A DNA stretch of 64,000 nt from Methylobacterium aquaticum (GTDB lineage: Bacteria > Pseudomonadota > Alphaproteobacteria > Rhizobiales > Beijerinckiaceae). Both the position numbers and the translations under genes were made by a program. A model generated the notes under the pieces. That model did not search any database. It had not been told where the DNA came from and worked only from the letters and a program-made list of their open reading frames with translations. The DNA is taken from contig NZ_CP043627.1 of the NCBI RefSeq assembly GCF_016804325.1, forward strand, positions 3,237,001 through 3,301,000. Reading direction: 5' to 3'. This document shows, piece by piece, positions 5,591 to 58,877 of the stretch (position 1 is the stretch's first letter; each line of letters starts with the position of its first letter).

Positions 5591-5639
5591 GGGGGCGAGG
5601 GCAATTTCCCTCTTCCGCGGGCGGGGGAATGGCGCGCCT

Positions 5640-5786
5640 CCCCTCTCCAGTGTGGGAGAGGGGCCGGGGTGAGGGTGCTACGGTTGTTAGTCAAGCACTG
5701 AACGTCGAGCTGGCAGCGGAACAGTCCAGTCTTATTGCGGCACCGTAGCACCCTCACCCCTACCCCTCTCCCACACGGGAGAGGGG
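5640..5786. repeat. Long inverted repeat, family 3, copy a
   Basis: About 147 bp. Each end is itself a hairpin (CCCCTCTCC ... GGGAGAGGGG), and the two ends are mutual inverted copies (GTGAGGGTG ... CACCCTCAC). The centre contains GAACG...GCTGGCAGC. A second copy at 37029-37176 shares the ends and parts of the centre. It lies 50 bp downstream of ilvA in a stretch (5591-5982) with no gene; the remaining bases up to lgt show nothing recognisable. Confidence 0.8.
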
Positions 5787-5982
5787 ATCCCGCGCTCGAT
5801 TTTGAAAGCGGTTTTTCCTGGACAGGTCTGTCCAGCCGCCAAGGGGTCAACAGCCCTCTCTCGGTTTCCGACCAGACCGAATCAGCCCCACACCCGCAAC
5901 ACGGGCGCCGCACGCTCGACACGCTGTCGCGGCATGAGAGGCGCCTTGACGCCGCCTCGCCACAGGTCCACCCCTCCGCCCG

Positions 5983-13430: not shown

Positions 13431-13769
13431 TGGGGATGGCAAAGGCATCCTCCGCTTCAGCCGCGAGGTACATGACAGCTGCGTGACGCCAACGAACCAT
13501 GGGCTTTCCCACCCACGACCTCATCCTGAGGTGCGACCGGAGGGAGCCTCGAAGGAGGGCTCCAGAAGTCTCGGTGGTTCCTGGAGCCCCCCTTCGAGGT
13601 CAGTCCATCTTCGATGGACTGACACCTCAGGATGAGGTTGCGGATGGGATTGAGAGCCTGGAGCAAGCAAAAAGCTCCCAGCCCCCGCATCACTTCCGGA
13701 GCCGCAGAAGCAGCACCGGGGATGACACGAACGGTGTCAGTCACGTCGTGGAAATCGTCTCCCGGACTC
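13431..13769. other. Intergenic stretch with one long palindromic repeat
   Basis: No gene seen. The stretch is dominated by the family 2 element at 13519-13637. It separates two converging genes (acetyltransferase and cobT), where bidirectional termination would be useful. Confidence 0.6.
13519..13637. repeat. Palindromic intergenic repeat, family 2, copy a
   Basis: 119 bp with outer arms CCTCATCCTGAGGTG/CACCTCAGGATGAGG and inner arms around CTCGAAGGAGGGCTCCAG/CTGGAGCC-CCTTCGAG. A further hairpin is AGTCCATC-TTC-GATGGACT. Copies occur at 23791-23925 and 43648-43766. Confidence 0.85.
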
Positions 13770-23420: not shown

Positions 23421-24167
23421 GCCCCCGAAAGGGGGATGGTGGTACAATCGAACTGGTATAGGGTGGTGCGACTGTCCTCCCTAAGAGGCGCGCGCCCACG
23501 CCGTTCACCTCCACCTCCACCTTCGACCTTGGCGTGGGCGCTTCCTTATCTGGCGATCGGCTTGAGCGGGTTCGGCTCGCCGGCGGTGGGCCTGACGGAA
23601 AATTACTCTAAAACCGAATCGACAACGCTATTCCCGAGTAATTTCGGATATTTCCCGACATCATTGCAAGATTTGGGAAGGGAAAGATTCGCGCATTGTC
23701 TGGCTCGATGCAGATCCAGCTATCAGGGCCTGTTTGAGCAGAGTAATTTGACAAAAATCGAGAAGAATTAGGAGATATCCTACCCTTCCACCTCATCCTG
23801 AGGTGTTGGCGATCAGAGATCGCACGCGATCGCAGATCGACTGACCTCGAAGGAGGGCTCCAGAAGCCTCGGCGATCCCTGGAGCCCTCCTTCGAGGCTC
23901 ACTTCGTTCGCACCTCAGGATGAGGTTAGAGGGTAGGATGATCCCGCCGGCCTCAAATCTTGGGTGGAAGTCCTGCTCAAACAGGCTCTCAGCATGAGAT
24001 TAGAGGCTGAGATGAACATAACATCATCCAGATGATTTGTAGAAAATACTGTTCAAGCAGGCTCGCAGAGCGTGCCTTGATTGGTCTGCGTCCCGGATCG
24101 ATCGGCGCAACCGCGCATTGAGGCTCTCAATTTCGGGACGGCGCGGCCAATCCTGCCGCACCGCCCC
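23421..24167. other. 747-bp gene-free, locally AT-rich intergenic region with repeats
   Basis: No credible gene. An open frame at 23436-23771 starts in a Pro-rich shadow and ends in AT-rich DNA without family resemblance. GC falls clearly at about 23590-24070 compared with all neighbours. The stretch holds the family 2 element at 23791-23925 and its 75-bp flank (23926-24002), which recurs twice at 43767-43918. An imperfect inverted repeat GCGCCCACGCC ... GGCGTGGGCGC lies at about 23489-23543. Confidence 0.6.
23791..23925. repeat. Palindromic intergenic repeat, family 2, copy b
   Basis: 135 bp with outer arms CCTCATCCTGAGGTG/CACCTCAGGATGAGG and the same inner ACCTCGAAGGAGGGCTCCAG segment as the other copies. 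Its loop is about 16 bp longer than in the 119-bp copies, through the segment GATCGCACGCGATCGCAGATC. Confidence 0.85.
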
Positions 24168-25621: not shown

Positions 25622-26404
25622 TCAGGGCGTGGGATCGAGCCGCATCGCCAGGCCCGCCGCCGCCATGTGGGCCTTGGCCTCCGCCACGGTGTGCTGACCG
25701 AAATGGAAGATCGAGGCGGCGAGGACCGCGCTCGCCCCGCCGTCGCGCACCCCCGCCACGAGGTCGTCGAGACCGCCGACGCCGCCCGACGCAATCACCG
25801 GGACGTTGACCGCGTCGCTGATCGCCCGGGTGAGCCCGATGTCGTAGCCCGAGCGCATCCCGTCGCGGTCCATCGAGGTGACCAGCAATTCGCCCGCCCC
25901 CTTCCCGGCCACGAGGCGGGCGAAGTCGATCGCGTCGATCCCGGTGGGCTTGCGGCCGCCATGGGTGAAGATCTCCCAGCGGGCCGGCTCGCCCTCGCCG
26001 GAGACGCGCTTGGCGTCGATCGCCACGACGATGCATTGCGCGCCGAACTTTTCCGCCGCCCGCGCCACCAGGTCCGGGTCGTTCACCGCCGCGGTGTTGA
26101 TCGAGACCTTGTCGGCCCCGGCGAGCAGCAGGGTGCGGATGTCCTCGACCTTGCGCACCCCGCCGCCGACGGTGAGCGGCATGAAGCAGGCCTCCGCCGT
26201 GCGGCTGACCGCGTCGAGCAGGATGCCGCGCGCCTCGTGGCTCGCCGTGATGTCGAGGAAGCAGAGCTCGTCGGCCCCGGCGCGGTCATAGGCCTTGGCG
26301 GCCTCGACGGGATCGCCGGCGTCGCGCAGTTCGAGGAACTGCACGCCCTTGACGACGCGGCCGTCCTTGACGTCGAGGCAGGGGATGATGCGGGTCTTGA
26401 GCAC
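25622..26404 (-). CDS. hisF: Imidazole glycerol phosphate synthase cyclase subunit
   Basis: 260 aa TIM barrel that, with HisH, converts PRFAR and ammonia to IGP and AICAR. The catalytic Asp11 (PCLDV) and Asp130 (VVAIDAKR) are present. The start is GTG at 26404, fixed by the family N-terminus [10 protein letters not shown]; the longer open frame to 26521 runs into the DUF29 gene. A near-identical copy of its first 50 bp lies at 27030-27079. Confidence 0.96.
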
Positions 26405-26971
26405 GGGCGCCGTTTCAGGAGTTCGAGTCGATGGGGAAGTCGCGCGTGAGCATGTCGTCGCGCGTGTAAGGGCATGTCTCGGGAAAGGTCCGCAGCGGGA
26501 GACCGGTCTCCCGCGCGGCATCGACCCGGGCGCCGCGATAAGCGCGGGCCATCGCGTCGTCGAGCCGGCTTTTCAGGCCGGGGCTGTCGGCGAGAATGTC
26601 GGCCGCCTCGTCGCGCTGGTCACGGATCGACAGTGCCCAGCTCCTCGTCTGCCGCGCTGGCTGGTGGTCGAATTTCAGCATATGCAGCAATACGACCCGC
26701 CAGGCGCTGACGAGGCTCCTCAGTTCGGAGCGCCCCAAGCTCTCGATCTCCTCCGCCAGATGCTCGCGGTCGAGGGCGGAGAGGTCACCGGCGCGCAAGG
26801 CCGCGGCCTGCTCCATCGCCCAGCCGTACATGTCGTCGGCATAAGCCGTTGCCGGGCACAAGGCCGATCGCGCCGGCTCCGGCTTGGATTTACGGGTCAC
26901 GGCTGTCACGTTGTCACACGCCTTTCGGAAAGCCGTCGCCATCCTATCACGCGGCAAACTCGTCCGCCTCA
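26358..26971. repeat. Tandem duplication, unit A (hisF head, DUF29-A, hisA-tail-like leader)
   Basis: The unit runs from the first 50 bp of hisF through DUF29-A to a segment resembling the end of hisA (CTATCACG ... CCGCCTCA). Unit B at 27030-27638 has the same parts in the same order. The hisF portions match at 49 of 50 positions; the DUF29 portions are far more diverged. Confidence 0.75.
26415..26909 (-). CDS. DUF29 family protein, copy A
   Basis: 164 aa. DUF29 proteins are small all-helical proteins of unknown function, common in cyanobacteria and alphaproteobacteria and often in multiple copies. The conserved core is [35 protein letters not shown] followed by HMLKF-HQP and the ending [11 protein letters not shown]. 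The GTG start at 26909 is chosen by alignment with copy B (both begin V-T-A-x-TRKSKP); ATG 26942 is an alternative. It sits between hisF and copy B. Confidence 0.8.
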
Positions 26972-27076
26972 ACCTGCCCGGGCGCATGCCGTCCGCGCGA
27001 TGGCGATCGGCGCCTGCATCGAGTCGATCCGGCCGTCCTTGACGTCGAGGCAGGGGATGATGCGGGTCTTGCGCAC
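26969..27076 (-). pseudogene. hisF 5' remnant
   Basis: GTG 27076 opens a 35-codon frame whose first 16 residues, [16 protein letters not shown], repeat the HisF N-terminus with one change (L2 to R). It then continues into unrelated sequence and stops at a TGA aligned with the hisA stop region of unit B. The 50 bp at 27030-27079 match 26358-26407 except at one base. This is the head of hisF carried along in the tandem duplication. Confidence 0.8.
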
Positions 27077-27638
27077 GGGATGCTGGCTCTACTCGTAGAG
27101 GAAGGGGATTGACATCGCCTCGTCGCGCGTGAAGGGACAGTCGATCGGAAATATTGCCGGAGCGAGGCCGGTCTCGCTGATCGCATCGTGCCGCGCCTGC
27201 AGATAGGCGCGCTCGAATGCTTCGTCGAGACGCGACTTCAAGCTCGGGTTGTCGGCGATCGTCAAGCTCACATGCTTGCGATGTGTCGAGATCGAGACGG
27301 CCCAACTCGCGCAGCGATGGCTCGGCTGATGCTGCCACTTGAGCATGTGAAGCTGGACCAGGGCGTAGAAGCTGACGAGGCGATTGAACTCCGACCGGCC
27401 CAAGCTCTCGATCTCCTCGGCCAGGTTCTCACGATCGAGCACCGACAGATTGCCGGCGCGCAGAGCGGCAGCCTGCTCCATCGCCCAGCCGTAGATGTCT
27501 TCGGCATAGGCGGTCATCGGCAGCGGGGGAGCCGGCCGAGCAGGAGCCGGCTTGGATTTACGGGTCGCGGCGGTCACGTCGTCTCACGCCTCCGGATAGC
27601 CGCCTCGATCCTATCACGAGGCGGGCTCCTCCGCCTCA
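27030..27638. repeat. Tandem duplication, unit B
   Basis: hisF-head fragment, DUF29-B, and the intergenic end up to the hisA stop codon. It is separated from unit A by 58 bp of unshared sequence (26972-27029). Confidence 0.75.
27089..27577 (-). CDS. DUF29 family protein, copy B
   Basis: 162 aa, a paralogue of the neighbouring copy A (roughly 55-60% identical by eye). It shares [41 protein letters not shown] and CPFTRDE. GTG 27577 is preceded by GGAGG at about 12 bases. Divergence is concentrated in the middle (residues about 85-125) and the C-terminus. Function unknown. Confidence 0.8.
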   Translation of the reverse strand: MTAATRKSKPAPARPAPPLPMTAYAEDIYGWAMEQAAALRAGNLSVLDRENLAEEIESLGRSEFNRLVSFYALVQLHMLKWQHQPSHRCASWAVSISTHRKHVSLTIADNPSLKSRLDEAFERAYLQARHDAISETGLAPAIFPIDCPFTRDEAMSIPFLYE

Positions 27639-28400
27639 CTCCGGCGCCTGGGCACCCTTGCCCTGCGCCGCTTTCACCCGCGCGATGGCCGCCAGTGCCT
27701 CCTTCGGGTCGATGCGGCCGTCATAGAGGGCGCGACCGGTGATGGCGCCGGCGAGGCTCGCGCAGTCGGGCTCCAGGATGCGGTGCACGTCCTCGATCGA
27801 GGCGAGCCCCCCCGAGGCGATGACCGGGATCTTCACCGCCTGGGCGAGGCCCAGGGTCATCGGGATGTTGAGGCCCTTGAGGATGCCGTCGCGGGCGATG
27901 TCGGTGTAGATGATCGCGGCGACGCCGGCATCCTCGAAGCGGCGGCCCAGCTCCTCCGCCGTGACCGTCGAGGTCTTGGCCCAGCCCTCGACCGCGACAC
28001 GCCCGTCCTTGGCGTCGATGCCGACGGCGATCTTGCCGGGGAAGCGGCGGGCGGCCTCGCGCACGAAGGTCGGGTCCTTGACTGCGGCGGTGCCGATGAT
28101 GACCCGGCTGACGCCCTTGGCGAGCCAGCCCTCGACGGTGCGCATCTCACGGATGCCGCCGCCGAGCTGCACCGGGATCGTCACCGCGGCGAGGATCGCG
28201 TCGACCGCCGCGGCGTTCATCGGCGCGCCCGCGAAGGCGCCGTCGAGATCGACCACGTGGAGCCAGGGAAAACCCTGCTCCTGGAACGTCCCGGCTTGCG
28301 CCGCCGGATCGTCGCTGAAGACGATGGCCTGCGCCATGTCGCCCTGCACGAGGCGGACGCAGCGCCCTTCCTTGAGATCGATGGCCGGAAACAGGATCAC
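27636..28400 (-). CDS. hisA: Phosphoribosylformimino-5-aminoimidazole carboxamide ribotide isomerase
   Basis: 254 aa TIM barrel that isomerises ProFAR to PRFAR, the substrate of HisFH. The catalytic acid Asp8 (PAIDLKEGR) and the second-half Asp129 (GIDAKDG) are present, with phosphate loops LGGGIR and SGGL. It begins with GTG. Gene order hisH-hisA-hisF is kept, but two DUF29 genes separate hisA from hisF. Confidence 0.96.
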
Positions 28401-36928: not shown

Positions 36929-37233
36929 GGGTCGGGGGCGGTTTTGCGTGTCGGCTGCCGCAAGGCTAAGGTTGGGGCACGATTTCTACGCGGCCCTCAT
37001 TGCCCTGCCGCGGACGAGAGCGCGATCCCCCCTCTCCCGTGTGGGAGAGGGGCCAGGGGTGAGGGTGACACGCTTCAGCAGAGAACGCTGAATGTGGTGC
37101 TGGCAGCAGGACGGTCCGAGCCTGACACAGGACCGTAGCACCCTCACCCCTACCCCTCTCCCACACGGGAGAGGGGATCCCGCGCGAACTCGTCCAGGGT
37201 AGCGCGGTCACGGCTCATCCTGGACCCACCCCC
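36929..37233. other. Intergenic stretch with family 3 repeat
   Basis: No gene seen. About half of the stretch is the inverted repeat at 37029-37176; the last 57 bp lead into the PuuE gene. Confidence 0.6.
37029..37176. repeat. Long inverted repeat, family 3, copy b
   Basis: 148 bp. The ends are nearly identical to copy a at 5640-5786 (CCCCTCTCCC-hairpin, GGTGAGGGTG ... CACCCTCACCCCTACCCC). The interiors share GAACG-TGAA-GT-G-GCTGGCAGC and ACCGTAGCACCC. In both places the element lies downstream of a plus-strand gene and is followed by GATCCCGCGC. Confidence 0.8.
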
Positions 37234-40243: not shown

Positions 40244-40353
40244 TGTCATACGCTTTCCGATTGATCGCTTCGCGATGCGGAAAGCGGCTTCGCTCAAGCG
40301 CCGCGCGGGCTGGTGATACGGCATCCGAAAGTGATCTTCCGGATGCCGTATCA
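40244..40353 (-). repeat. Stop-codon-linked structured repeat, family 4, copy a
   Basis: 110 bp read on the minus strand, starting with the TGA stop of the extensin-like gene. Hairpin 1 has 14-bp perfect arms TGATACGGCATCCG/CGGATGCCGTATCA (40314-40353). A nearly invariant core follows (CACCAGCCCGCGCGGCG), then hairpin 2 with arms CGCTTTCCG/CGGAAAGCG enclosing ATCGC-GAA-GCGAT. Copy b is at 58769-58877 in the same relation to another gene. Confidence 0.85.
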
Positions 40354-41226
40354 CTGGCACAGGCGGTGGCCGGCATTGCGCTCGCGCTCGTCGAGGTGGA
40401 GGTGGTTGGCATGCGCCGCGTCCGAGCCGGGACCGAGCACGGTGCGGAAGAAGCCGCAGGCCCGGGTCCTGACGGCGGCTTCGAACGCCGCCTCGGGCGT
40501 GCCCTCCCGCGCCGCACCGACCGTCACCGGCGCCCGGCCCTCGAAGGTGAAACCCATCACGTCGACGCCGTTGGCATAGGCGTGCTCGCTGAGCTTGGCG
40601 CTCGGGTCGTGGTTCTGGCCGCGGCACTCGTAGGAGCCGCCGATCTGGATCGTCTTCGGCACGCTCGAGAGCGTGCGCTCGGCGATCACCCGGACCTCGG
40701 TGCTCCAGCGGCCGAGCGCTTCCGCGGCGACGCAGGTGAGGGTGGCGGCGGGACTGAGCGGGACGCCGTCGGGAAGCGCCGTCACCCGCAGGGGCTTGGC
40801 CGCCCCGCACAGCCCATCGGCGAGGGGCGCCACCGGCTCGGCCTTGACGCCGAGGCGGTCGAGCCGGCGCAGGCAGGCGGTGTCGTCGGGAACGACCGTG
40901 GCGGGGGTGGGGGCCGGAGCGGCGGGCAGGTCGGCGGGCCGTTCGGGCGGCAGCGGCGCCGGTTCGGGGACGGGCGAGGCGGGCGCGTCCTTGGGGGTGT
41001 CCTTGGAAGTGTCCTTGGGCGTGTCCTTGGCGGCCTCCTTGGGGGCCGGATCCTTCGCAGCGGGCTCCTTGGCCTCCTCGGGCCGCGGCGGCGGCAGCGG
41101 CACCTGATCGGCCGGGACCCGGCTCAGCGGAGACGGAGCGGCCGGTGCCTGCGCGGCAGCCGGACCGGCCAGAATGGCACTCCCCACCAGCCCGGCGAGG
41201 ATCCGCCCCATCATCGTCCCCGGCAT
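40351..41226 (-). CDS. Extensin-like family protein (secreted)
   Basis: 291 aa. A signal peptide (ending AGPAAAQA) is followed by a long Pro/Lys/Asp linker with short repeats (KDTPKDTSKDTPKDAP) and a C-terminal extensin-like domain (PF06904) from about residue 115. That domain has CLRRLDRLGV, SPAATLTCVAAEAL, GSYECRGQNHDPSAKLSEHAYANGVDV and HANHLHLD. Histidines in SEHA and HLHLD suggest a metallopeptidase-like site. A cell-wall role is inferred. The ATG follows GGGAGGGGG. The stop codon is the first codon of the family 4 repeat. Confidence 0.88.
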   Translation of the reverse strand: MPGTMMGRILAGLVGSAILAGPAAAQAPAAPSPLSRVPADQVPLPPPRPEEAKEPAAKDPAPKEAAKDTPKDTSKDTPKDAPASPVPEPAPLPPERPADLPAAPAPTPATVVPDDTACLRRLDRLGVKAEPVAPLADGLCGAAKPLRVTALPDGVPLSPAATLTCVAAEALGRWSTEVRVIAERTLSSVPKTIQIGGSYECRGQNHDPSAKLSEHAYANGVDVMGFTFEGRAPVTVGAAREGTPEAAFEAAVRTRACGFFRTVLGPGSDAAHANHLHLDERERNAGHRLCQ

Positions 41227-41358
41227 CGCCCCCTCCCCCAGTCGCGCTTCACAACGGACGAGCAAGCGTAGCCGTTCCCCCACCTCGCGCGCCCTGCCGC
41301 GCTTGCGCCCCACGCTCCACGGTCTATCGTCGCCCGCGCCATCAGCGAGAGGATCAGC

Positions 41359-43419
41359 ATGCGCGGCGTCACGGCGGAGCACGAGCCCAACCCCTTCTCC
41401 GAGCCGGCCTGGACCACGCCCCACGGGCTGCCGCCCTTCGAGCGCATCGTCCCCGCGCATTACGAGCCGGCCTTCGAGCGGGCGCTGGCCCAGCACGTCG
41501 CCGAGATCGAGGCGATCGCCGGCAATCCCGAGCCGGCGACCTTCGCCAACACGATCGAGGCGATGGAACGCTCCGGCCAGGCCCTGCGCCGGGTCTCCTC
41601 GACCTTCTTCAACCTCACCGGCAGCCACACCAATCCCGAGCTGCAGGCGGTCGAGCGGTCGGTGTCGCCGCGGCTCGCCCGCCATGGCAGCGCGATCTAC
41701 CTCAACCCGGACCTGTGGGCGCGGGTCTCGAGCGTCGGCGAGGACGGCCTGTCCGACGAGCAGAAGCGGGTGCGCGAGCGCTACCGCCTGCGCTTCCGCC
41801 GCGCCGGGGCCGAGCTCGACGCCGAATCGAAGGAGCGGATGGCCGCCATCGCCTCGCGGCTCGCCGAGCTCGGCACCCAGTTCAGCCAGAACCTGCTCGC
41901 CGACGAGGGCGCCTTCACGCTGGAATTGACCGGTGAGGACGATCTCGCCGGCCTGCCGCCCTTCCTGCGCGCTGCCGCCAGCCGGGCGGCCGAGGAGCGC
42001 GGGCTGAAGAACAGCCACGTCGTCACCCTGTCGCGCTCGCTGATCGACCCGTTCCTGGTCTTCTCGACCCGGCGCGACTTGCGCGAGCGCGCCTACGCCG
42101 CCTGGATCCGCCGGGGCGAGAACGGGGGCGAGACCGACAACCGGGCGATCATCACCGAGACCCTGCGCCTGCGCGCCGAGCGGGCCCGCCTGCTCGGCTA
42201 TTCGAGCTACGCCGCCTACCGCCTCGACGACACGATGGCCGGCAGCGCGGACGCCGCCGTCGGCCTCCTGGAAGAGGTCTGGGCGCCGGCCCGCCGCCGG
42301 GCCGTGGCCGAGCGCGACCGCCTCCAGGCACTGGCCCGCGAGGACGGCCAGAGCTTCGATCTCGCGCCGCATGACTGGCGCCACTATGCCGAGCGCCTGC
42401 GCCGCCGCGAGCACGACCTCGACGAGGGCGAGATCAAGCCGTACTTAGCCCTCGAGGGCATGATCCAGGCCGCCTTCGATACGGCGCATCGCCTGTTCGG
42501 TCTCTCCTTCACCGAACTCCCGGACGTGCCGCGCTACCACCCGGAGGTGCGGGCCTGGGAGGTCGCCGACCGGGACGGCCGGGTGATCGGCCTGTTCCTC
42601 GGCGATTACTTCGCGCGGGCCAGCAAGCGCTCGGGCGCCTGGATGAGCGGCTTCCGCTCGCAGGAGCGCCTGACCGGCGCGGTCACGCCGATCATCGTCA
42701 ACGTGATGAACTTCGCCAAGGGGGCGGAGGGCGAGCCGTCCCTGCTCTCCTTCGACGATGCCCGCACGCTGTTCCATGAATTCGGCCACGCCCTGCACGG
42801 GCTTTTGTCGAACGTGACCTACCCGATGCTCGCCGGCACCGCGGTAGCGGGCGATTTCGTCGAATTGCCGTCCCAGCTCTACGAGCACTGGCTGGAGCAG
42901 CCGGAGGTGCTGCGGGCGCATGCCCGCCACTACCGCACCGGCGAGCCGATGCCCGAGGACCTGCTGGCCCGGCTGCTCGCCGCCCGCACCTTCAACCAGG
43001 GCTTCGCCACGGTGGAATACACGGCGTCCGCGATCGTCGATCTCGACCTGCACCTGTCGCCGGAGGCCGAAGGCGGCATCGATCCGCTCGCCTTCGAGGC
43101 CGAGTCGCTGCGCCGGATCGGCATGCCGGCCGAGATCGCGATGCGCCACCGCTCGCCGCACTTCCAGCACATCTTTGCCGGGGAAGGCTACGCGGCGGGC
43201 TATTACAGCTACCTCTGGTCCGAGGTGCTGGACGCCGACGCCTTCGACGCCTTCCGGGAGGCCGGCGACATCTTCGATCCGGCCACCGCCGAGCGGCTGC
43301 GGACCTACGTCTACGGCGCCGGCAACCTGCGCGACGCGCGGAGCGCCTACACGGCGTTTCGCGGCCGGCTGCCGAGCACCGGGCCGCTGTTGCGCAAGCG
43401 GGGGCTGGCGGCGGCGTAG
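41359..43419 (+). CDS. M3 family zinc metallopeptidase (oligopeptidase A / Dcp type)
   Basis: 686 aa cytoplasmic oligopeptidase. The zinc site HEFGH has His473 and His477, with the downstream Glu in the FVELPSQLYEHW region. The substrate-side motif HFQHIFAGEGYAAGYYSYLW is typical. Length and the N-terminus NPFSEPAWTTPHGLPPFERI fit the PrlC/Dcp subfamily, which degrades peptides, including signal peptide fragments. It is divergent from the extensin-like gene with 132 bp between. Whether it is a dipeptidyl carboxypeptidase or an endopeptidase cannot be told. Confidence 0.93.
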   Translation: MRGVTAEHEPNPFSEPAWTTPHGLPPFERIVPAHYEPAFERALAQHVAEIEAIAGNPEPATFANTIEAMERSGQALRRVSSTFFNLTGSHTNPELQAVERSVSPRLARHGSAIYLNPDLWARVSSVGEDGLSDEQKRVRERYRLRFRRAGAELDAESKERMAAIASRLAELGTQFSQNLLADEGAFTLELTGEDDLAGLPPFLRAAASRAAEERGLKNSHVVTLSRSLIDPFLVFSTRRDLRERAYAAWIRRGENGGETDNRAIITETLRLRAERARLLGYSSYAAYRLDDTMAGSADAAVGLLEEVWAPARRRAVAERDRLQALAREDGQSFDLAPHDWRHYAERLRRREHDLDEGEIKPYLALEGMIQAAFDTAHRLFGLSFTELPDVPRYHPEVRAWEVADRDGRVIGLFLGDYFARASKRSGAWMSGFRSQERLTGAVTPIIVNVMNFAKGAEGEPSLLSFDDARTLFHEFGHALHGLLSNVTYPMLAGTAVAGDFVELPSQLYEHWLEQPEVLRAHARHYRTGEPMPEDLLARLLAARTFNQGFATVEYTASAIVDLDLHLSPEAEGGIDPLAFEAESLRRIGMPAEIAMRHRSPHFQHIFAGEGYAAGYYSYLWSEVLDADAFDAFREAGDIFDPATAERLRTYVYGAGNLRDARSAYTAFRGRLPSTGPLLRKRGLAAA

Positions 43420-43647: not shown

Positions 43648-43766
43648 CCTCGTCCTGAGGTGTTAGTCGATCGAAGATCGACTGACCTCGAAGGAGGGCT
43701 CCAGAAGCCTCGGCGATCCCTGGAGCCCTCCTTCGAGGCTCACTTCGTTCGCACCTCAGGATGAGG
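43648..43766. repeat. Palindromic intergenic repeat, family 2, copy c
   Basis: 119 bp. Outer arms are as in the other copies with one change (CCTCGTCCTGAGGTG). From GACTGACCTCGAAGG to the end it matches copy b at 23791-23925 almost base for base. Confidence 0.85.
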
Positions 43767-43918
43767 TTAGAGGGTAGGACGATCCCGCCCGCCTCAAGTC
43801 TTGAGTATAAGTTCTGCTCAAACAGGCTCTCAGGATGAGGTGAGTCGATAGGATAATCCCAATCGTCTTAAGTCTTGAGGAAAAAATCCCGCTCAAACGG
43901 TCTCTCAGGATGAGGTCA
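43767..43918. repeat. Two tandem copies of a 75-bp unit
   Basis: Units at about 43767-43841 and 43842-43916 share AGGA-GATCCC / AGGATAATCCC, CTCAAGTCTTGAG / CTTAAGTCTTGAG and GCTCAAAC-GG-TCTCTCAGGATGAGG. A third, single copy flanks the family 2 element at 23926-24002. The internal CTCAAGTCTTGAG is itself palindromic. Confidence 0.7.
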
Positions 43919-47396: not shown

Positions 47397-47498
47397 GGCA
47401 CGAGCTTCCTCTTTTCCGATCCCGCAGAACCCCGGGCAGTAATTTGCACCTCGTGCGAATTCTGCTCTGTCGGACCCAACGGCGGAATCGATACCCTT

Positions 47499-47640
47499 GC
47501 TGTCATTCCGGGGCCGCGCAGCGGAGCCCGGAATCCAGACGCGCGGAGGGATGAGAGTGAAGCGGGCCGCTACCCGCCTCGTTCTTGACCATCCGCGGTT
47601 CTGGATTCCGGGCTCCGCTACGCGGCCCCGGAATGACAGC
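47499..47640. repeat. Long inverted repeat, family 1, copy c
   Basis: 142 bp. The arms GCTGTCATTCCGGGGCCGCG and their inverse at 47621-47640 are followed inward by AGCGGAGCCCGGAATCCAGA / TCTGGATTCCGGGCTCCGCT. Two divergent half-elements are thus joined by about 55 bp. No gene lies in 47397-47661. Confidence 0.8.
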
Positions 47641-50705: not shown

Positions 50706-50759
50706 ACCCTCCGCGTCATTCCGGGCCGCGAAAGCGGAGCCCGGAATGACGCGGAGGGT
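50706..50759. repeat. Palindromic repeat, family 1, copy d
   Basis: 54 bp with perfect 20-base arms ACCCTCCGCGTCATTCCGGG and the inverse. The loop is CCGCGAAAGCGGAG. The flank GGGTGTCA is shared with copy a at 3804-3875. It lies between the converging LpoA-like and PPOX genes. Confidence 0.85.
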
Positions 50760-57430: not shown

Positions 57431-58771
57431 ATGCCGCCCCGCTCCGCCGTCCTCGCAGTCCTCCTGAGCCTCGTCGCCGGCCCCGCCGGCGCGGCCGAGG
57501 GCCTCGCCCTGACCGTGCTCACCGAGCGCACCGGCCCGATGGCCGCCGCCGGCACGCCGCTGGCGAACGGGCTGTCCGATTACCTGACCATGCTCGGCCG
57601 GCGCGACGGCGGCGTCGGCGGGATCCCGCTGGCGGTCGAGGAATGCGAGACCGGGGGCGAGGCGGCGCGGGCGCTCTCCTGCTACGAGGGAGCCACGGCC
57701 CGCGGCAGCATCGCGCTCGTGCCCGGCAACGCCGACGCGGCGCTCGCGCTGCTGCCGCGGCTCGCCGGCGACCGGATGCCCCTCGTCGCCGCCGGCTACG
57801 GCCCGGCCGCGATGGCGCGGGGCGACGTGCTGCCCTGGGCCTTCGCGCCCCCGGCCACAGTGTGGGATTCCCTGAGCGCGGCGCTCGCCTATGTCGGGCA
57901 GGGCGGCAGCGAGGACAGCCCGCAGGGCCGCAGCCTCGCCTATGTCCACCGCGACAGCCCGGCCGGGCGCGAACCGGAGCCGGTGCTGCGGGCGCTCGCC
58001 GCCGAGGCCGGCCTCGCCTTCCGCGCCTATGCCCTGCCGGACGGGGCCTCCGCCGAGGAGAACACGGCGCCGTGGCGCGCCGTGCGGGCGGCGGATCCCG
58101 ATTACGTCATCCTCGATGCCACCGCCGGCCTCTCCGGCACGCCGCTCAGGGACGCCGCCGCGGCGGGCCTGCCGCTCAACCGCGTCGTCGTGGTCGGCTG
58201 GACCGGCGAGGACGACCTGCTGCAGCCGGGCGCCGGCGCCCGGGATCTCACCGCCAAGGGCCTGCGCACCGTGACCTGGCACGCGCCGGGCGACAGCTTC
58301 CCGGCCTTCGACCAGATCGACCTTCTGGTCATCGATGCCGGGCTGTCGCGCACCCCCAAGGCGGAGAATCCCGGCCCGCTCTACAACCGCGGCGTCTATG
58401 CCGGGGTGATCCTGGCCGAGGGCATCCGCAACGGCCAGCGCCTCGCCGGCAGGCGGGAGATCGACGGGCCCGAGATGCGCCGCGGGCTCGAGGCGATCAA
58501 CCTCGATCCGGTGCGCTGGAAGGAGCTCGGCCTCGTGGGCTTCGCCCGCCGCATCCGCCTCACCTGCGCCGACCATAGCGGCCGCCGACCGCTCACCCTC
58601 CAGGAATGGACCGGCGCCCGCTGGGTGCAGATCGGCGACGACATTCCGCCCCCGCGCGAGCGCCTGACCCCCCACCTCGATGCGGCGGTCGCGGCGTTGG
58701 CCGAGCGCGTCGCCACCGAGACCGGCACTGCCGGCGCGAAGCCGCGGGAGGCCTGCCCGGCATCCCCCTGA
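57431..58771 (+). CDS. Periplasmic binding protein of the branched-chain amino acid ABC type
   Basis: 446 aa. Signal peptide at about 1-21 (GPAGA|AE). Type 1 periplasmic-binding fold (Peripla_BP_6) with ALTVLTERTGPMAAAGTPLANGLSDYLTML, PDYVILDATAGLSG and YAGVILAEGIRNGQRLAGR. Relatives occur beside PQQ-linked alcohol dehydrogenase or urea-transport loci, but no permease or ATPase gene is adjacent here. AGGACA precedes the ATG. Its TGA stop is the first codon of the family 4 repeat. Confidence 0.85.
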   Translation: MPPRSAVLAVLLSLVAGPAGAAEGLALTVLTERTGPMAAAGTPLANGLSDYLTMLGRRDGGVGGIPLAVEECETGGEAARALSCYEGATARGSIALVPGNADAALALLPRLAGDRMPLVAAGYGPAAMARGDVLPWAFAPPATVWDSLSAALAYVGQGGSEDSPQGRSLAYVHRDSPAGREPEPVLRALAAEAGLAFRAYALPDGASAEENTAPWRAVRAADPDYVILDATAGLSGTPLRDAAAAGLPLNRVVVVGWTGEDDLLQPGAGARDLTAKGLRTVTWHAPGDSFPAFDQIDLLVIDAGLSRTPKAENPGPLYNRGVYAGVILAEGIRNGQRLAGRREIDGPEMRRGLEAINLDPVRWKELGLVGFARRIRLTCADHSGRRPLTLQEWTGARWVQIGDDIPPPRERLTPHLDAAVAALAERVATETGTAGAKPREACPASP

Positions 58772-58877
58772 TACGAAATCCGGACGACCTTTCCGGATTT
58801 CGTCTCACCAGCCCGCGCGGCGTCCGAGCGAAGCCGCTTTCCGCATCGCGAAGCGATCAATCGGAAAGCGCATGACA
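58769..58877 (+). repeat. Stop-codon-linked structured repeat, family 4, copy b
   Basis: 109 bp starting with the TGA stop of the binding-protein gene. Hairpin 1 has arms ACGAAATCCGG/CCGGATTTCGT (58773-58803), extended by TGA/TCA with one mismatch. The core CACCAGCCCGCGCGGCG and hairpin 2 match copy a (40244-40353) almost exactly. The arms of hairpin 1 differ from copy a at two neighbouring positions, compensated on the other side. Confidence 0.85.

Follow-up and report, generated by a model that had tools for sequence, protein, structure and literature searches.

Stop-anchored paired hairpins in Methylobacterium aquaticum: probable insertions of a non-autonomous, MITE-like element that duplicates a TGA/TCA target

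RESULTS

Two related elements begin at the stop codons of two genes

The window analyzed here is a stretch of 64,000 nt from the genome of Methylobacterium aquaticum (G000 in our genome set). As the first-pass annotation of this DNA had claimed, two related elements within it each begin at an in-frame TGA stop codon: the stop of ORF 40351-42414 (minus strand) forms the first three bases of copy a (40353-40244, minus strand), and that of ORF 57431-58771 (plus strand) forms the first three bases of copy b (58769-58877, plus strand). Both gene calls are backed by Pfam matches, PF06904 (Extensin-like_C) for the former and PF13458 (Peripla_BP_6) for the latter. The ranges given for the two copies take in a few flanking bases, and a second TGA lies near the far end of each, at 40248-40246 in copy a and at 58873-58875 in copy b. 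The features of the two copies are listed below.

40351..40353, minus strand: copy a, left target-duplication copy, which is the TGA stop of the extensin-like gene (end of ORF 40351-42414; a single TGA in the relatives' empty site)
40249..40350, minus strand: copy a, element core of 102 nt, TACG...CGTA (copy alignment; missing at the orthologous site in G015)
40314..40353, minus strand: copy a, hairpin 1, with TGA and an inner TCA paired at its foot (fold; consensus fold with compensated pairs)
40251..40286, minus strand: copy a, right hairpin, CGCTTTCCG...CGGAAAGCG with inner ATCGC/GCGAT (consensus fold and single-copy fold)
40246..40248, minus strand: copy a, right target-duplication copy, TGA (the G015 match picks up again here)
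58769..58771, plus strand: copy b, left target-duplication copy, which is the TGA stop of the periplasmic-binding-protein gene (ORF 57431-58771; one TGA in G024 and G086)
58772..58872, plus strand: copy b, element core of 101 nt, TACG...CGCA (copy alignment; empty sites)
58769..58807, plus strand: copy b, hairpin 1, with one T.C mismatch near the foot (fold)
58835..58870, plus strand: copy b, right hairpin (fold)
58873..58875, plus strand: copy b, right target-duplication copy, TGA (TGACAAGTCTTCGC directly after the gene end in G024 and G086)

In a repeat search of the window, copies a and b appeared as inverted arms of 87 nt that are 91% complementary. Each copy forms two stable hairpins and folds better than all of its 200 dinucleotide shuffles (200/200; z for the whole copy, –6.62 for a and –3.94 for b). 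The arms of hairpin 1 read GGCA/TGCC in one copy and GAAA/TTTC in the other, and this change is compensated, as had been noted earlier, with one broken pair (T.C) near the foot in copy b. The window gave no match to curated Rfam families at the gathering score.

Several other repeats lie in the window. A different dispersed palindromic repeat (CCTCGAAGGAGGGCTCCAGAAG...) occupies 13547-13599, 23827-24003 and 43668-43844, its copies being 91-94% alike; sequence of this CCTCGAAGGAGGGCTCCAGAAG kind beside one further copy of the element (L031) matched dozens of places in relatives. Another dispersed repeat, at 5639-5795 and 37018-37185, is rich in CCCTCTCCC/GGGAGAGGG; this repeat occurs several times and in both orientations. 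A third type (TCATTCCGGGGCCGCGCAGCGGAGCCCGGAAT) is found at 47493-47640 and 50706-50747, and its arms 47499-47566 and 47573-47640 form a long inverted repeat. Direct repeats about 670 nt apart at 26339-27764 (repeat families D2, D4 and D12) suggest a tandem gene duplication.

The copies belong to a dispersed family detected only in the genus

A DNA search of the window's own genome returned 44 matches. We then used a covariance model built from 18 copies, which gave 83 matches at E values up to 1; 50 places were kept, the 33 dropped matches being opposite-strand shadows and weak matches. Counting one near-identical duplicate at the contig ends once, 49 places remain in the 7.28 Mb genome. These searches with DNA and with the covariance model exclude chance similarity of two copies as an explanation. 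The duplicate is the same element copy lying in two stretches, one close to either end of contig C1 (G000:C1:14209-18341 and 6985458-6988191), that share 99.7% identity over 2.7 kb, so that the contig ends probably overlap; both copies remain among the 141 rows of the end analysis described below.

Among other Methylobacterium genomes, 23 of 46 contained matches to the covariance model at E values up to 1e-5, compared with none of 32 genomes that represent other families in the order; the filters in this search were stricter, so that zero counts may hide weak copies. Copy number per genome ranged from none to at least 43 among the matches listed. Thus, among the genomes searched, the element is found only in the genus of the window. 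For the analyses below, we used 91 of 96 covariance-model matches in relatives, five shadows or edge matches having been dropped; the 91 copies come from 23 genomes, 62 of them from G024, G036 and G039, and most were drawn from the best-scoring matches.

The core is mostly 102 or 121 nt long (101-102 nt in the window); cores that contain a middle hairpin often have the greater length. Its ends are imperfect inverted repeats of about 10 bp, TACGnnnTCCG...CGGAnnnCGTA. From left to right, the family consensus consists of hairpin 1 (TGATACGnnnTCCGGA...TCCGGAnnnCGTATCA), a linker (CCAGCCCGCGCGG), the optional middle hairpin (TGAAGCCGTAGGCTTCA in many copies of G000), a second linker (GAGCGAAGCCG) and the right hairpin (CGnnnTCCG...CGGAnnnCG), after which the element ends in TATGA. 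The G+C content is 0.53-0.70 in the 96 relatives' matches; that is, the element is not A+T-rich, and the host DNA is G+C-rich.

Among 11 sampled 102-nt cores of G024, five are identical to at least one other and 10 are at least 97% like another, a similarity that would fit a recent burst. One locus in G011 (L092) carries tandem copies, in which the TGA at the end of one copy is also where the next begins. A plasmid search matched three Methylobacterium records, and in the two regions read neither matched stretch starts at a stop codon.

The element probably duplicates a TGA or TCA target

For 141 copies, a script set the right end where the sequence best resembled CGTA. The same trinucleotide, TGA or TCA, stands at both ends in 80 copies (TGA in 74, TCA in six). 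When both ends are either TGA or TCA, the left trinucleotide equals the right in 80 of 84 copies (Fisher test, 1.4e-6). In the other 57 copies, one end or both differ from TGA and TCA, and we took such ends to be decayed or misplaced. Within G036, TGA..TGA and TCA..TCA both occur on related cores; therefore, the trinucleotide goes with the site, as target duplication predicts.

Orthologous sites lacking the element decide the question for the two window copies. At the copy a locus, query 1-450 and query 552-851 meet in G015 with a 4-base overlap and no element between them; the match reaches the TGA and continues from the second one, with a single TGA at the site. The element was absent after the stop of this gene in all 29 relatives viewed (29 of 58 other matching genomes), of which 11 keep a TGA stop and 18 have TAG or TAA. 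By a pattern test, it was likewise absent in 34 of 34 loci, including those of M. tarhaniae and M. frigidaeris; these are the loci read among 40 Methylobacteriaceae loci, and some repeat genomes already viewed (L267 reads like G015). For copy b, both G024 and G086 read ...CCGTGACAAGTCTTCGC, which is the window's right flank behind a single TGA, and the other five loci viewed were too divergent for an exact junction. For a TCA-type copy, L043 (G000:C1:412927-413036), G015 and G086 both show an exact empty site, in which the TCA is part of the GTGA overlap of two genes. At L033, the element is absent in the relatives shown, with less exact flanks. L036 gives no clean test, since TAG is found in six of the seven relatives shown and TGA in the seventh, and the G000 copy has CGA on its right. 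Several empty sites differ in sequence after the stop and thus show absence rather than an exact junction. We conclude that the element duplicates a 3-bp TGA/TCA target on insertion.

Target choice accounts for most of the stop anchoring

The start at a stop codon recurs beyond the two window copies and is no coincidence. Of the 49 places in G000, 21 begin precisely at the TGA of a gene that reads into the element, as do 17 of the 30 best-scoring places, and in relatives 48 of 91 copies begin exactly at a gene's TGA. Five further copies in relatives, of the TCA..TCA type, have at their right end the stop of a gene that runs the opposite way. No left end is TAA, TTA, TAG or CTA. Genes in these analyses were called with a codon-usage script trained on the window rather than with a standard gene finder.

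We compared the number of copies at stops with that expected if all TGA/TCA trinucleotides in the same noncoding block, stop codons included (mean, 5.9 per block), were used evenly. This comparison used 75 of the 80 duplicated copies, leaving out four called coding and one at a locus end. At stop codons there were 49 copies against 35.0 expected, a number reached in none of 20,000 simulations; the other 26 lie elsewhere. Copies thus start at stop codons because insertion duplicates a TGA/TCA target, and the choice of this target together with avoidance of coding DNA explains most of the anchoring, leaving a 1.4-fold excess. Milder harm at gene ends than in promoter regions could be a source of that excess.

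According to the first-pass annotation, copies scattered at random distances from stop codons, or hairpin arms varying without compensation, would speak against a functional 3΄ element. A large class of copies in fact lies at distance zero and the arms are mostly compensated, yet the rest of the copies are scattered.

Stem covariation and the possibility of an mRNA 3΄ element

Of 135 distinct cores, 124 allowed placement of hairpin 1 and 116 that of the right hairpin; arms were accepted only if at least 8/12 or 6/9 positions were complementary, a rule that favors paired cells. All four Watson-Crick pairs occur at three positions of hairpin 1. The right hairpin has three variable positions, two of them with all four pair types and one with at least three. 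About 90% of the cells of hairpin 1 are Watson-Crick, a figure raised by the placement rule. The stems therefore covary across many copies. Among mismatches, G.T exceeded A.C by 69 to 47, a borderline difference (P = 0.051) that is weak evidence at best for selection on the sense RNA. In addition, at one site common to G012, G041 and G024, where the upstream 60-nt flanks are 97-98% identical, hairpin 1 differs on both arms, with one extra base per arm in G024 and the middle hairpin present or absent. Selection can account for these differences, as can template-switch repair, gene conversion or several insertions into the same site.

These observations bear on the reading originally proposed, in which the hairpins are a functional element of the mRNA 3΄ end (termination, 3΄-end protection or ribosome release) that selection maintains at stop codons. 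The stability of the hairpins, the three or four Watson-Crick pair types at variable stem positions, the excess at stops, the slight surplus of G.T and the concerted arm change would all be in keeping with it. However, the copies are insertions that are absent at the same stop in every relative viewed, about half of all copies do not start at a stop, including the 26 of 75 noted above, and both TGA..TGA and TCA..TCA orientations occur, the TCA-type copies facing the gene the opposite way. Moreover, scans of both regions for an intrinsic terminator (GC-rich stem followed by a T run) found none on the element, the single hit per scan lying outside it. Nor does covariation prove selection on RNA, since the same pattern can arise when a palindrome is mobile or is repaired by template switching. 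We accordingly consider it improbable that selection on these mRNAs keeps the element at stop codons; a separate RNA role is possible.

Mode of insertion

Taken together, these results make it very likely that both window copies are insertions of one non-autonomous element, similar to a miniature inverted-repeat transposable element (MITE), with TGA/TCA target duplication. Dispersed copies have empty orthologous sites, the target is duplicated with one trinucleotide in the clean empty sites, and the ends form terminal inverted repeats (TACGnnnTCCG on the left and its inverted form on the right). The patchy distribution, in 23 of 46 congeneric genomes and 0 of 32 outside the genus, also supports this assignment. 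The A+T-richness of many MITEs is lacking at a G+C content of 0.53-0.70, a feature that is not universal, as the account of YPAL in PMC2229807 illustrates.

We propose that a transposase acting in trans would make a 3-bp staggered cut, by which the target is duplicated; the TACG...CGTA ends and the 3-bp duplication point to an enzyme of the DDE type. On landing in a stop codon, the duplication would regenerate the stop, and the gene would lose nothing and gain a hairpin directly after it. Stop codons would make up a large share of harmless sites because coding insertions are presumably rarely tolerated and noncoding blocks hold few TGA/TCA sites. The stems may be kept complementary since the transposition machinery would need the hairpins, possibly aided by template-switch repair. 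A mild, secondary effect on mRNA 3΄ ends is possible. An end-pattern search of G000 and G024 found no autonomous partner or transposase with shared ends. Among its unassigned one-mismatch matches, six were read (four in G000 and two in G024); the reversed-pattern control gave 7 matches in G000 and 5 in G024. Two of the six start at a stop codon like ordinary copies, and no transposase was recognised among the genes at the six matches, as judged by reading the sequences.

The orientation bias of 74 TGA-left to six TCA-left copies is not what one would predict from a simple double-strand cut at a symmetric target; the covariance model derives mainly from TGA-left copies, and this may add to the bias. 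The bias and the hairpins near both ends would instead suit a single-strand HUH Y1 element of the REP/RAYT or IS200/IS605 kind, in which the left TGA is the cleavage target and the right TGA is the element's own. IS200/IS605 elements use guide pairing, and a resembling association was observed here: copies with TC. at the inner foot of hairpin 1 have TGA flanks in 65 cases and TCA flanks in none, whereas those with TG. have TGA in six and TCA in six (Fisher test, 3.9e-6; three copies with a foot of neither class left out). However, this association is confounded with lineage, which may explain it, as 10 of the 12 TG. copies come from G036, and the joint switch of both ends to TCA in that genome fits target duplication better. 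Furthermore, Y1_Tnp was present in two of 14 element-bearing genomes tested (14 of 24 carriers) and in one of eight genomes without element matches; the 12 carriers lacking it include G024, G036 and G039. A RAYT or IS200 enzyme was therefore set aside as the mobiliser. The one Y1_Tnp match in G000 looks like a separate IS200-type gene, with surroundings that, by eye, do not have the ends of the element. We thus regard an HUH Y1 mechanism as unlikely. The gene concerned (L078, G000:C1:1462155-1462511) encodes an IS200-like Y1 transposase, lies in an AT-rich stretch with hairpins of its own and is the sole Y1_Tnp match of the genome.

If lineage does not explain the association, the inner TCA of the hairpin 1 foot might pair with a TGA in DNA that is unwound or single-stranded. 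The stem would then be completed by the target, and this pairing would set both target and orientation, an idea we consider conceivable although doubtful. If it were true, elements whose inner foot changed to TG. would have gained TCA targets too, and homing to stop codons would be set by three bases, a simple and testable target rule.

DISCUSSION

Target duplication restores the codon that is hit, and the element can thus accumulate at gene ends at little cost, where it puts stable hairpins immediately behind stop codons. The end of the element (..ATGA) apparently also gives the neighboring gene its ATG in eight copies (coding score above 25); these are six of 89 right-TGA copies and two of eight TCA-left copies. 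The element at L043 sits in a 4-base stop/start overlap, where one end turns the GTG start into ATG and the other keeps the stop. More generally, covarying, stop-anchored hairpins can be mobile DNA, which calls for caution in covariance-based RNA discovery.

A literature search covering titles and the beginnings of abstracts, with few subscription journals, found no description of this family or of a TGA-duplicating stop-codon element. According to the description in PMC2229807, bacterial MITEs such as RUP, NEMIS/Correia and ERIC are short, non-coding and palindromic, with inverted ends that carry a terminal 5΄-TA and with target duplication, all of which the Methylobacterium element shares. 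However, it differs from them in that it duplicates TGA/TCA, is not A+T-rich, has no known partner transposon and consists of two separate terminal hairpins with a linker rather than one end-to-end stem. YPAL/RU-2 of Yersinia is similar in that it is not A+T-rich and has internal inverted repeats, target duplications and empty sites, but as described in the same source it is 168 bp long, occurs in another host, generates duplications of 3 to 26 bp and is without the terminal TA (PMC2229807).

CIR, the Caulobacter intergenic repeat, also reported from Brucella, is about 110 bp long, with two stem-loop arms and a linker, and belongs to alphaproteobacteria (PMC2229807). Its size, architecture and host class agree with the present family, which could on that account be a member; the comparison is by description, not by sequence. 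However, GANTC, the CIR methylation site, is mostly absent here (a raw count of 14 of 80 copies with the site anywhere in the copy), and target duplication, demonstrated here, is marked as unknown for CIR in the table of PMC2229807. Membership in CIR therefore appears highly unlikely. The genus harbors another MITE, MiniMdi3 of Methylobacterium extorquens, which its description in PMC2680597 sets apart, again by description and not by sequence, as about 400 bp long and related to ISMdi3.

REP/RAYT and IS200/IS605 systems resemble the element in their dispersed palindromes, orientation bias and hairpins; unlike what such systems would lead us to expect, 12 of 14 carriers tested have no Y1_Tnp and both flanks switch together. 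BOX elements are modular, with a repeatable middle part, as is the family described here. A further likeness is the position at a stop codon, as the pneumococcal BOX repeat is reported to encode the stop codon in 36 annotated CDSs (PMC3049150). BOX differs in host and sequence, and the empty sites show that at both window copies the stop codon already belonged to the gene and was duplicated.
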